From: Caloramator sp. E03
GTDB lineage: Bacteria > Bacillota > Clostridia > Clostridiales > Caloramatoraceae
NCBI RefSeq assembly: GCF_006016075.1
Contig: NZ_CP040093.1
Span: 930,001 to 994,000 of the forward strand
DNA length: 64,000 nucleotides
Direction of reading: 5' to 3'
Part shown: positions 33,510 to 38,102 of the stretch, in pieces
Numbering within the stretch: the stretch's first letter is position 1
Layout: every line of letters starts with the position of its first letter
Notes under the pieces: model-generated
Told to the model about the DNA's origin: nothing
Databases searched by the model: none
What the model saw: only the letters and a program-made list of their open reading frames with translations
Made by a program: the position numbers and the translations under genes

Positions 33510-34163
33510 TTATACTGCATCTTTATTGCATTCTTCTACAATATCAACAATATCTAAAAGGCTTTTTACTCTATAATCTGGATTGTATTTTAAAAGTTCC
33601 TGTAAAGGAAGTGAGGTATACTCCACAACACAAGTTAAAGTTCCTGCATTTTTGCCACATAGTACATCAAAGGAAGTATCTCCAACATAAATTGCTTCTG
33701 AGGGGCTTATATTTAAAATTTCACAGGCCTTTTTAACGGGTTCCCCGTCTGGCTTATGCTTATTTGTATCTTCTAGGGTTATAAATACATCAAGGGGCTG
33801 TTTAATGTTTGTAACTTTAAGCCCTCTTTCAGCCATAACCTTCCTTTTAGAAGTTACAATCCCCACTTTAATATTAAGGGATTTTAGAATTTTTAAAACT
33901 TCATCTGCTCCTTCAAAGGCTCTTACCATTGAATCATGCTTTGACTCATTAAATTCTATATAGGTATTAAACATATCATGAGCTTTTTGACTGTCATATC
34001 TTGATAAAGTTGTAATTAAAGGCTCACCAAAATACCTTGTTATCTCCTCCTCAGTAACGTCTAAATTTAAATGTCTTTTATAGGTATATTTAAAAGATTC
34101 AATAATTAACCTATTAGTATTAACAAGTGTTCCATCAAAATCAAATAAAACTAACTTAATCAA
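33510..34163 (-). CDS. HAD-family phosphatase (PpaX/phosphoglycolate phosphatase-like)
   Basis: The 217-residue protein has HAD motif I LFDFDGTLVNT, motif II IVTSKR, motif III lysine near HKPDGEPVK and motif IV YVGDTSFDV, with an alpha-helical cap between. It resembles PpaX pyrophosphatases, but Gph-type activity is equally possible. The best start is the TTG at 34163, 8 bases after GGAGG; the longer frame from 34208 lacks a site. The IS target duplication ends 26 bp upstream, so its promoter probably lies within the 120-bp repeat. Confidence 0.85.
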   Translation of the reverse strand: MIKLVLFDFDGTLVNTNRLIIESFKYTYKRHLNLDVTEEEITRYFGEPLITTLSRYDSQKAHDMFNTYIEFNESKHDSMVRAFEGADEVLKILKSLNIKVGIVTSKRKVMAERGLKVTNIKQPLDVFITLEDTNKHKPDGEPVKKACEILNISPSEAIYVGDTSFDVLCGKNAGTLTCVVEYTSLPLQELLKYNPDYRVKSLLDIVDIVEECNKDAV

Positions 34164-34188: not shown

Positions 34189-34308
34189 ATTATATATAAT
34201 AATATCATATAAAGATATTAAAATCTAAACAAATATCTTATTTCTACCATAAATTACTCTAAATATATAACAATTGATAATTTTAATTAGTTATCAATAA
34301 CTTCCACT
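34189..34308 (+). repeat. Left copy of the 120-bp direct repeat (target duplication of the IS)
   Basis: It matches 36267-36386 over 120 bases with one mismatch (34303 T against 36381 G). It abuts the left end of the element exactly. On the minus strand it contains a plausible TTGTTT-17-TATGAT promoter for the HAD gene. Confidence 0.93.
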
Positions 34309-34346
34309 CGGGTCTTTGACAGTTGCAAGACAAAAAAAGTGCCTTA

Positions 34347-34372
34347 AAGCCTTGATATAGGCTTATTTTTTT
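34347..34372 (+). terminator. Terminator just inside the left IS end
   Basis: A 6-bp stem AAGCCT/AGGCTT with a 6-base loop is followed by ATTTTTTT. It lies before the transposase promoter region and would block read-in transcription from outside. Confidence 0.7.
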
Positions 34373-34436
34373 GTCAAATTTTAAATTTTTATAGTGCACA
34401 ATGTGTAACAATGTGTTATAATATAGATATAAATAT

Positions 34437-36167
34437 ATGAAGAGATGTGAAAAAATGAGATTACAAATTGTTAAATCAAAAAATGCAGCATCCTTATATG
34501 TAGTTAAATCTGTTTATGAAAAAGGCAAGCGTACATCAAAAGTAGTTGAGAAGCTTGGCACTTATGATGAACTTTTAAAAAAACTAAACGGACAAGACCC
34601 TATAGAATGGGGGAAGAGGTACGTTGAAGAGTTAAATAGAAAAGAAAAAGAAGAGAAAAGAGAAATATTAGTAAAATACTCGCCTGTTAAACAAATTAAC
34701 AAGGACGAACAGCATACTTTTAATGGTAGTTACTTGTTTTTACAAAAAATATATAACGAGCTTGGGCTGCAAAATATCTGTAAAAATATTTCGGATAAAC
34801 ATAAATTTAATTTTAATCTAAATTCAATACTATCAAGATTAATTTATGCAAGAATTATTTATCCATCATCTAAGCTTGCTACATACGAACTATCAAAAAA
34901 ATTTATTGAGCAGCCTGATTTTGAGCTTCAGCATATTTATAGAGCTTTAGAAGTGATTTCACAAGAAACAGATTTTATTCAGTCAGAATTATACAAGAAC
35001 AGTCTTAAAGTTTGCAATCGTAATAAAGGAGTTCTCTATTATGACTGCACCAACTATTTCTTTGAAATTGAACAGGAAGAAGGATTAAAACAGTATGGAG
35101 TATCGAAGGAACATAGACCCAATCCAATTGTTCAAATGGGACTTTTCATGGATGGAGACGGCATCCCCCTTGCATTTTGTATAAACAAAGGTAATACTAA
35201 TGAACAAGTAACTTTAAAACCTTTAGAGCAAAAAATTATATCCGAATTTGGGCTTTCAAAATTTATCATTTGTACAGATGCAGGGCTTGCATCTACAGCA
35301 AACAGAAAATTTAATAATATACAAAATCGAGCTTTTATTACTACACAATCTATTAAAAAATTAAAATCACATTTAAAAGAATGGGCGTTAGACCCCAAAG
35401 GATGGCATCTTAGCGATTCAGACAAAGTATATAATTTAAACGAAATTGACGAAGAAACAGATATTAATAAAATTTTTTATAAGGAACGCTGGATAAAAGA
35501 AGACGGGCTTGAACAAAAACTTATTGTAACATTTTCCTTGAAATATAGAAACTATCAAAGAACTATAAGAGGTAACCAAATAGAGAGAGCTCAAGAGGTT
35601 ATTGATACCAATCCTACAAAATTGAAGAAATGTAATGCTAATGATTACAAACGCTTTATTTCAAAGACTCACTGCACACCTGACGGTGAAGTAGCTGAAA
35701 AAGAATTATACAGCATTAATGCTGATTTAATAGCACAAGAGGCAATGTATGATGGTTTTTACGCAGTATGTACAAATATAAGTGATGATGCTGCCGCAAT
35801 TATAAAAATTAATAGAAGGCGTTGGGAAATAGAAGAGTCCTTCCGTATTATGAAATCAGAGTTTAAGGCAAGACCAGTATATTTAAGAAGAGATGATAGA
35901 ATAAAAGCGCATTTTACAACTTGTTTCATTTCCCTGATGATATATAGGCTATTAGAAAAAAAGCTTTCAGAAAAATATACGTGTAGCGATATTATATCAG
36001 GACTTAGAGAAATGAATTTTTATGAGATTAAGAATGAGGGCTATATTCCAATATATACAAGGACTGATTTTACAGATGATTTACATGACAAATTTGGCTT
36101 TAGAACGGATTATCAAATAATTAATATGAAACAAATGAAGAAAATTTTTAAAGACACGAAAAAATAA
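34437..36167 (+). CDS. IS1634-family transposase
   Basis: The 576-residue DDE transposase catalyses movement of the element. Catalytic residues appear as Asp203 in YYDCTNYFF, Asp281 in ICTDAGLAS and Glu464 in RRWEIEESFRIMKSEF. The first ~90 residues are lysine-rich and probably bind the ends. The frame is full-length without interruption. The ATG at 34437 is used; one at 34455 is an alternative. A TATAAT box lies at 34418-34423. Confidence 0.95.
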   Translation: MKRCEKMRLQIVKSKNAASLYVVKSVYEKGKRTSKVVEKLGTYDELLKKLNGQDPIEWGKRYVEELNRKEKEEKREILVKYSPVKQINKDEQHTFNGSYLFLQKIYNELGLQNICKNISDKHKFNFNLNSILSRLIYARIIYPSSKLATYELSKKFIEQPDFELQHIYRALEVISQETDFIQSELYKNSLKVCNRNKGVLYYDCTNYFFEIEQEEGLKQYGVSKEHRPNPIVQMGLFMDGDGIPLAFCINKGNTNEQVTLKPLEQKIISEFGLSKFIICTDAGLASTANRKFNNIQNRAFITTQSIKKLKSHLKEWALDPKGWHLSDSDKVYNLNEIDEETDINKIFYKERWIKEDGLEQKLIVTFSLKYRNYQRTIRGNQIERAQEVIDTNPTKLKKCNANDYKRFISKTHCTPDGEVAEKELYSINADLIAQEAMYDGFYAVCTNISDDAAAIIKINRRRWEIEESFRIMKSEFKARPVYLRRDDRIKAHFTTCFISLMIYRLLEKKLSEKYTCSDIISGLREMNFYEIKNEGYIPIYTRTDFTDDLHDKFGFRTDYQIINMKQMKKIFKDTKK

Positions 36168-36196
36168 AAAACATTGTTCACTTTTTTGAAAAGTAT

Positions 36197-36241
36197 AAAA
36201 GTCTGAGAGCCCTTGATATTCAATGGTTCTACAGGCTTTTT
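36197..36241 (+). terminator. Terminator after the transposase
   Basis: An interrupted stem of about 14 pairs (AAAAGTCTG and GAGCC pairing with GGTTC and CAGGCTTTT) ends in five T residues, 30 bp after the transposase stop and inside the right IS end. Confidence 0.75.
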
Positions 36242-36266
36242 GCTTCTCGCAACTGTCAAAGATGAG

Positions 36267-36386
36267 ATTATATATAATAATATCATATAAAGATATTAAA
36301 ATCTAAACAAATATCTTATTTCTACCATAAATTACTCTAAATATATAACAATTGATAATTTTAATTAGTTATCAATAACTGCCACT
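36267..36386 (+). repeat. Right copy of the 120-bp direct repeat (target duplication of the IS)
   Basis: It is 119/120 identical to 34189-34308 and abuts the right IS end. The ptsG promoter begins 31 bp beyond it, so the insertion did not separate ptsG from its own promoter. Confidence 0.93.
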
Positions 36387-36470: not shown

Positions 36471-36557
36471 TACGTGTTACTGATTCGATCAGGCATGAGT
36501 AAAAGTATATAAATTAGACATTAGTCTAATTTATTATATTTTTGCTCATGCCTTTTT
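36471..36557 (+). promoter_or_regulatory. GlcT-type RNA antiterminator (RAT) overlapping a transcription terminator
   Basis: The segment 36472-36500 (ACGTGTTACTGATTCGATCA and onward) matches the RAT sequence that GlcT-family antiterminators bind in ptsG leaders. Its last bases (AGGCATGAG, 36491-36499) also form the 5' arm of a terminator whose 3' arm CTCATGCCT (36545-36553) is followed by TTTTT. An extra hairpin (AAATTAGAC/GTCTAATTT) fills the loop. Binding of GlcT would prevent the terminator and permit ptsG expression when glucose is present. No glcT gene lies in this window. Confidence 0.9.
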
Positions 36558-36587: not shown

Positions 36588-38102
36588 ATGTCAGCAAAAA
36601 AAGCATTTGGAGTACTACAAAAAGTTGGTAAAGCATTAATGCTACCCGTTGCACTACTTCCTGCTGCAGGTATTTTATTAGCCTTTGGTAACATGTTTCA
36701 AAATCAAGCATTCTTAGAAAAGGCACCTATGTTTGGAGCAGCAGGTGTACAAATAGTAGCTAAGGTTATGGAAAAGTCTGGAGATATAATTTTCGGTAAT
36801 CTTCCATTACTTTTCGCAGTTGGTGTTGCAGTAGGTCTTTCAGGTGGTGAAGGCGTTGCAGGACTTGCAGCAATAGTAGGTTTCTTAATAATGAATGTTA
36901 CAATGGGAATAGTAGGAGGAGTTACTTCCTCATTAGTTGGAAAAAATCCTGCTTATGCAAATGTTTTAGGAATTCCAACTCTTCAAACAGGTGTATTTGG
37001 TGGTATCATTGTAGGTCTTATAGCTTACGTATTATATGAAAAATACTATAAGATAGAATTACCTCAATTCTTAGGATTCTTTGCAGGCAAAAGATTCGTT
37101 CCAATTATTACAGCAGCTACATCAATAGTATTAGGTTTAGTGATGGTCGTTGTATGGCCTCCAATACAGCATGGATTAAATGCTTTCTCAAGCTCAATGA
37201 TTGATGCAAATAAAACTATAGCTGCATTTATATTTGGTGTTATTGAAAGAGCACTTATTCCATTTGGATTACATCATATTTTCTATAATCCATTCTGGTA
37301 TCAGTTTGGTGAATACACAAATAAAGCCGGAGAACTTATTCGTGGAGATCAGGCAATATTTATGGCTCAGCTTAAGGACGGAGTTAAATTTACAGCTGGT
37401 ACATTCATGACTGGTAAGTTCCCATTCATGATGTTTGGTCTTCCAGCAGCAGCTCTTGCTATGTACCATGAAGCAAAGCCAGAAAAGAAAAAGATTGTTG
37501 CTGGTATTATGGCATCAGCAGCACTAACATCCTTCTTAACAGGTATAACAGAGCCAATTGAATTCACATTCTTATTTGTAGCACCAGCACTTTATGCTGT
37601 ACACTGTTTATTTGCAGGACTTTCATTTATGTTAATGCACATACTAAACGTTAAGATAGGTATGACATTCTCTGGTGGTTTAATTGACTTTATACTATTT
37701 GGTGTAATACCAAACAGAACAGCTTGGTGGCTTGTAATTGTAGTAGGTTTAGCATTCTCAGTAATCTATTACTTTGGTTTTAGATTTGCTATTAGAACAT
37801 TCAACCTAAAAACTCCTGGTAGAGAAGATGATGAAGCTGAAACAGCTGCAACATCAACTACAAATTCTGAACTCGCAGCAAATATACTTGAAGCACTTGG
37901 GGGAAAGGAAAACATTAAGTACCTTGATGCTTGTATTACAAGGCTTAGAGTAAACGTAGTTGACAATAAAAAAGTAAACAAAGATAGATTAAAGCAGCTT
38001 GGTGCTGCAGGTGTAGTTGAGGTTGGCGATGGCATCCAGGCAATATTCGGACCAAAATCAGACAACATAAAGAGTGAAATAAAGAAAATAGCTGGTATAT
38101 AA
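36588..38102 (+). CDS. ptsG: PTS glucose-type transporter subunit EIICB
   Basis: It imports and phosphorylates a hexose, most likely glucose. Of the 504 residues, the first ~395 form the EIIC channel ([35 protein letters not shown]). The C-terminal EIIB domain carries the phosphorylated cysteine in [10 protein letters not shown] (Cys449). There is no EIIA domain, so a separate EIIA is needed. Expression is controlled by the RAT leader upstream, and a terminator follows at 38152. The neighbouring convergent genes are an aldolase and a glycyl-radical enzyme. Confidence 0.93.

Follow-up and report, generated by a model that had tools for sequence, protein, structure and literature searches.

Insertion sequences of an IS1634-family clade carry long, variable target-site duplications and join one end at the -10 box of sigma-A promoters

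The window analysed here is the whole stretch of 64,000 nucleotides from Caloramator sp. E03 (contig NZ_CP040093.1, positions 930,001 to 994,000), and coordinates refer to it unless stated otherwise. It contains an insertion sequence that lies between a HAD-family hydrolase gene and a PTS EIIC/EIIB gene and is bounded by two copies of a 120-bp repeat (Table 1). As read from the sequence, the HAD gene begins with a TTG codon at 34163 with GGAGG just upstream, and an exact -10 box lies close upstream of both; the -35 box is poor, matching at 2 of 6 positions. The PTS gene has its own candidate promoter, also read from the sequence, which lies outside the duplication. Upstream of the PTS gene, at 36472-36553, we also observed a 29-bp sequence that is identical in several relatives and is followed by a hairpin; the region resembles a BglG/LicT-type antiterminator RNA site, judged from the sequence alone. 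The plus-strand hairpin at the right end of the element is likely the transposase terminator, judged from the sequence alone, and the folding of an antisense terminator at this end was not significant (z -1.1).

Table 1. Features at the insertion site (positions within the window)
Feature	Position	Strand	Remark
IS1634-family insertion sequence, 1958 bp	34309..36266	+	Ends as in the 16 full-length genome copies
Left copy of the 120-bp target-site duplication	34189..34308		Adjoins the element exactly; 119/120 identical to 36267-36386
Right copy of the target-site duplication	36267..36386		First bases ATTATA, complement of the -10 box
-10 box TATAAT of the putative HAD promoter	34189..34194	-	Right end joined at its downstream edge
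Duplicated -10 box	36267..36272	-	Now points inward at the right end, antisense to the transposase
DDE transposase, 576 aa	34437..36167	+	NF033559 E 2e-111; PF01609; model-predicted fold matches Tn5
Left terminal inverted repeat, inner part	34313..34339	+	Paired with 36236..36262
Right terminal inverted repeat, inner part	36236..36262	-	Paired with 34313..34339
Candidate transposase promoter, TGCACA-16-TATAAT with TG extension	34395..34422	+	
Terminator-like hairpin at the left end, inward direction	34347..34364	+	
Strong hairpin at the right end	36166..36266	+	-29.4 kcal/mol, z -4.3
HAD-family hydrolase, downstream of the targeted promoter	33510..34163	-	PF13419 E 1e-49
PTS EIIC/EIIB gene, left-end side of the original site	36588..38102	+	PF02378 E 7e-92

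The transposase belongs to the IS1634 family according to the NCBIfam model NF033559 (373 bits against a cut-off of 100), and its Pfam match, DDE_Tnp_1, is of the IS4 type. The predicted structure (pLDDT 83) best matches the Tn5 transposase (E 4e-8), followed by piggyBac; a weak glutaminase match in the PDB sequence search (E 0.05) was rejected as chance. In the clade alignments, D203, D281, and E466 show little or no variation, the DDE triad has the long N3-C1 spacer of the family, and the YREK motif is partly kept, with R462 and K473 present and N459 in the Y position. The element length (1500-2000 bp in the family) and the inverted repeats beginning with C (CGGG, and CTCA read inward) also conform to the family. 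The typical 5-6 bp AT-rich target-site duplication (TSD) is not found; the copies in this genome carry repeats of 32-374 bp, as expected for the long variable direct repeats of the IS1549-like long-TSD branch.

The genome, a single contig of 2.98 Mb, contains 16 full-length copies of the element, which are 99-100% identical, all start with CGGG and finish with TGAG. The boundaries of the window element (left end CGGGTCTTTGACAGTTGC, right end GCAACTGTCAAAGATGAG) are fixed because each of these copies spans bases 1-1958 with the same ends. In 15 of the 16 copies the element is abutted by in-register repeats, each of a different sequence, with lengths of 120 (the window copy), 349, 84, 374, 80, 88, 265, 103, 96, 87, 32, 109, 45, 135, and 151 bp. 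Chance repeats are excluded, since each of the other copies is abutted by a repeat of its own that is unrelated to the rest. All 15 undamaged copies show duplications and never deletions, which indicates a strict polarity of the two joins. In the sixteenth copy (L007, G000:C1 1846569-1851526), whose neighbours read as the EF-Tu C-terminus and an S10 leader, the repeat is damaged: just 52 bp are identical and the register is shifted by a 65-bp stretch present on one side only, which suggests later rearrangement. Two further copies (L003 and L005, G000:C1 1618492-1622541) lie in the same orientation 134 bp apart, and the second insertion is partly within the duplication of the first.

The first-pass annotation had claimed an intact IS1634-family element whose two 120-bp flanks abut it exactly and differ at one position, and these claims held: the 16 copies share their ends, the family model scores well above its cut-off, and the sole mismatch is T at 34303 versus G at 36381. 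It had also read the repeat as a target duplication arising from very widely staggered cuts. The other copies support this reading, as their repeats are neither short nor absent, with the correction that the length is variable and not fixed at 120 bp.

The alternative that the repeats are pre-existing tandem duplications, or products of later recombination and not of transposition, is virtually ruled out. We found no support for it beyond the off-register repeats of L007, L018, and L091, which are a sign of later rearrangement, and fifteen different repeats that each exactly abut a near-identical element speak against it. For two sister copies it is refuted by uninterrupted sites in two relatives of the same genus (G001 and G002). 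In the case of L004 (TSD 374 bp), both flanks align to the empty site and share 375-378 bases of it, equal to one copy of the repeat; in the case of L013 (TSD 109 bp), the flanks overlap by 106-108 bases, again one copy. The single repeat copy at these empty sites establishes the repeats of L004 and L013 as true TSDs, and the empty-site proof extends to these two copies only. At the site of the window copy, the homologous genes were located in the relatives and the intergenic DNA was not alignable. Base-level alignment indicates that the promoter pre-exists exactly at the empty site of L013 and, for L004, at that of G002; the -10 box differs at the L004 empty site of G001.

In element orientation we write the site as X^TSD^Y, where the boundary X^TSD marks the join of the right end and the boundary TSD^Y that of the left end, and we compared the junctions of the Caloramator copies with those of relatives having 58-75% identical transposases (80 loci). 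In 9 of the 16 Caloramator copies, the duplication begins exactly with ATTATA, the complement of TATAAT, and the sites of the relatives agree with this. Across 82 unique right-end junctions, the flank positions 1-6 are A93 T72 T80 A73 T91 A84 (%), and the conservation of A93, T91, and A84 parallels that of T-7, A-11, and T-12 in sigma-A promoters. At least five of the six -10 positions match at 57 of 82 right ends versus 3 of 84 left ends (p 8e-21). An extended -10 signal, CA at positions 8-9, is present at 33 of the 82 right-end junctions; among right-end sites with a good -10 box its frequency is 48%, versus a background of 7%. Over the 82 junctions, the -35 signal peaks at a spacing of 17 (12 sites), followed by 18 (6) and 16 (4). 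A -35 box (at least 5/6, spacing 16-18) accompanies 37% of the 67 right-end sites with a good -10 box. Among -10-like hexamers of the same loci in general, the corresponding rate is 2.1% (p 7e-24), and it is 4.2% when only those located 15-150 bp upstream of open reading frames are counted (p 5e-12).

The targeted promoter reads away from the duplication. Consistent with this orientation, the nearest gene on the X (right-end) side points away from the element at 45 of 53 sites (p 1e-7); gene direction on the left-end (Y) side shows no bias (25 of 45). In addition, ten Rfam leaders, comprising FMN, fluoride, TPP, and cobalamin riboswitches, five T-boxes, and one S10 leader, lie on the expected strand and have their starts between -1 and 30 nt downstream of the cut, which places the cut at about -7/-6 of functional promoters. 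The right end is thus joined to the template strand of the promoter at the downstream edge of the -10 box, between -7 and -6, as shown by sequence comparison. Exceptions exist: about 30% of the right-end sites lack a 5/6 match to the -10 box, and where the -10 box is good, a 5/6 match to the -35 box is missing in about 60%. L014, for instance, is an AT-rich site without promoter features.

In a rival explanation, RNA polymerase plays no part: the transposase would directly recognise DNA that resembles TATAAT and is AT-rich or melts easily, and promoters would be hit only for containing such DNA. In its favour, no signal is stronger than the -10 hexamer, which lies directly at the cut, short-TSD members of the family reportedly favour AT-rich targets (PMC2266710), and some sites such as L014 are merely AT-rich. 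Against it, right-end sites exceed other TATAAT-like hexamers, even those upstream of genes, about 9- to 18-fold in -35 boxes at the proper spacing and 6-fold in the extended -10, the base preferences at the junction mirror those of sigma-A, and known leaders begin just downstream of the cut. On balance we lean slightly against direct DNA recognition. Another explanation is random insertion with selection retaining the events that preserve promoters. Selection could account for the lack of TSDs shorter than 29 bp, described below, but it can neither confine the cut to a single nucleotide within the -10 box (A in 93% at position 1) nor favour one end of the element over the other, and we regard it as very improbable.

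The left end shows no -10-type motif and just a weak three-base preference. Its join lies on the opposite strand, at a distance of 29-374 bp in the upstream direction, with the polarity that gives duplications and with little sequence preference, as is likewise shown by the junction sequences. The TSD lengths in the clade (n = 54) range from 29 to 374 bp with a median of 99.5 and fit a shifted exponential with a mean of 102 beyond 28 (KS p 0.5). No TSD below 29 bp was observed, versus 20% expected under a plain exponential (P 6e-6). The distance from the edge of the -10 box to just upstream of the -35 box is about 29 bp, so that no TSD is shorter than the promoter core; this lower bound possibly reflects either occupation of the core or selection against breaking it. 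The specificity of one end for sigma-A promoters, the polarity of the joins, their variable distance, and its lower bound are all shown by sequence, without experiment.

How the two cuts come to lie far apart is inferred and not shown. One possibility is a concerted insertion with a wide and flexible stagger in looped target DNA, in which RNA polymerase or supercoiling brings upstream DNA near without any polymerase step. Such looping also fits distances that are spread approximately exponentially and that start at the promoter core. However, looping alone predicts both duplications and deletions, and 15 of 15 undamaged Caloramator copies are duplications. Nor is helical phasing of the lengths clear: we obtained no convincing signal, and the best period, picked among 26, varied among subsets. 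Looping therefore remains a possible but weakened alternative.

Since the right end lies on the -10 box and the duplication covers at least the core from -35 to -10, the downstream gene retains its promoter. After insertion, gene X is inferred to have a full promoter and gene Y an intact upstream region, and the duplicate promoter should drive transcription into the element from its right end, in antisense to the transposase; these consequences are inferred from sequence alone. The suggestion in the first-pass annotation that the duplication holds the whole putative promoter region of the HAD gene, so that the insertion may be harmless by design, is supported in a sharper form, in that the -10 box is where the right end lies and the core is always duplicated; harmlessness itself is an inference.

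TSDs were not detected in many relatives with intact flanks, which counts against the mechanism proposed below. We observed that, in L069, L074, L075, L079, L080, L099, L106, L109, and others, the right end is often at a -10-like site and there is no duplication despite long flanks. The absent TSDs could be due to decay, recombination between insertion sequences, or a different joining outcome.

We surveyed the family and built a tree of 67 transposases, in which 54 long-TSD and 11 short-TSD (4-8 bp) transposases fall on opposite sides of one branch (SH-aLRT 97; 0 of 500 shuffles). The TSD labels are our own automated and manual calls, and a few rows have long branches. Several other groups in the long-TSD branch also place the right end at a -10 box, and their cut falls one base earlier (TATAA^T). 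In group C, L196, L197, L198, L046, and L047, an extended -10 box (TGnTATAA, directly followed by the junction) adjoins the left end instead, so that the duplicated promoter points inward, in the same sense as the transposase. One subbranch of the long-TSD branch has a T-tract at the left end. Such tracts, often TTTTT, lie directly at the left end in group A (L184-L191) and in L217, L220, L223, L236, L238, L243, and L246, which are other long-TSD IS1634-family groups without a -10 box at the right end. In L184, L189, and L190 the left end is within the T-run of a hairpin terminator, and the T-tract groups may therefore target terminators. The IS1634-family copy L237 (CCTGAGTTTATCA group) is flanked by a perfect direct repeat of 1362 bp, far above the reported 8-514 bp.

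In the mechanism that we propose, the clade would insert into sigma-A promoters with its two ends in unequal roles. The target would be a promoter recognised or bound by RNA polymerase-sigmaA and not naked TATAAT; the participation of RNA polymerase or sigma is inferred because the spacing-dependent -35 and the extended -10 signals matter. A single rigid complex with a fixed stagger would not carry out both strand transfers. Instead, the right end would join first and the left end would be captured later, at a distance decaying approximately exponentially beyond the promoter core. Fill-in of the interval between the joins would account for the long variable duplication, and hence for a downstream gene with a complete promoter and a second promoter copy directed into the right end. 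Most likely, a polymerase, perhaps together with the beta clamp, would elongate the 3'-OH exposed by the first joining up to the moment at which the second end is joined. Such synthesis starting at the first nick is an attractive cause of the variable length because an IS1634-family transposase binds the beta clamp, tighter binding giving more transposition (PMC4549789). The C-terminus of the present transposase contains DYQII and MKKIF, with no clear match to the published beta-clamp motif QLxLF. A further point against the mechanism is that RNA polymerase buries the template strand at -7 in the open complex, so a direct attack there would be sterically awkward. Taken jointly, a promoter-inserting clade with unequal ends, an RNA polymerase-sigmaA target, and uncoupled joins is likely the best explanation, for which there is no experiment.

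In a bolder reading, promoter-bound RNA polymerase-sigmaA would guide the first strand transfer, the second would be uncoupled in space and time, and the duplication length would be a record of the extent of DNA synthesis or contact before the second end joined. We judge this reading slightly more likely to be wrong than right. If it were true, it would represent a mode of transposition distinct from fixed-stagger DDE integration, with promoters as safe havens. Some retroelements use promoters in this way, and the clade is a bacterial parallel to them. With one end tied to a fixed promoter point, the puzzle of long duplications becomes a testable two-step reaction, for which a promoter site could be the target substrate in vitro. 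For annotation, a right-end junction marks a functional promoter to the base.

Since 1998-1999, long duplications of variable length have been known for two elements, IS1549 (Mycobacterium smegmatis) and IS1634 (Mycoplasma mycoides). They share with the present clade the transposase family and the direct repeats that vary between copies, reported as 8-514 bp and without a mechanistic model as of 2008 (PMC2266710). However, no target motif is reported for them in the text examined (PMC2266710), whereas in our clade one end is tied to the promoter -10 box and the lengths begin at 29 bp. They are reported exceptions among IS1634-family members, which typically make 5-6 bp duplications (PMC2266710); short-TSD members such as ISGka5, with a 6-bp duplication (PMC8024623), match the same family model, but the relatives with 4-8 bp duplications fall in a separate part of the tree. 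IS1630 of Mycoplasma fermentans (IS30 family) also makes variable duplications, of 16-26 bp (PMC3317919), but it differs in its transposase family, its much shorter duplications, and its inverted-repeat targets, and it is more like the terminator-associated side groups of the long-TSD IS1634 family.

We found no earlier report of promoter targeting in the IS1634 family in the open-access literature searched, which leaves out most subscription journals. Long TSDs and promoter targeting are each known separately; their combination, with one end on the -10 box and a variable duplication that spans the promoter, did not turn up in that literature. The TnGBS, ISLre2, and ISKra4-group elements of the Mutator superfamily are, like the present clade, DDE elements with sigma-A promoters as targets; their orientation is fixed, which is ascribed to inverted-repeat asymmetry, and the insertion point lies 15-17 bp upstream of the -35 box (PMC3942029). 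In contrast, our clade cuts at -7/-6, has only one end that reads the promoter, and makes a duplication that spans it, and its transposase is not of the Mutator type, as its hits are to IS1634 and the IS4-type DDE_Tnp_1. The clade is thus a second, unrelated group of bacterial elements that homes on sigma-A promoters, at a different place and with the promoter duplicated and not displaced.
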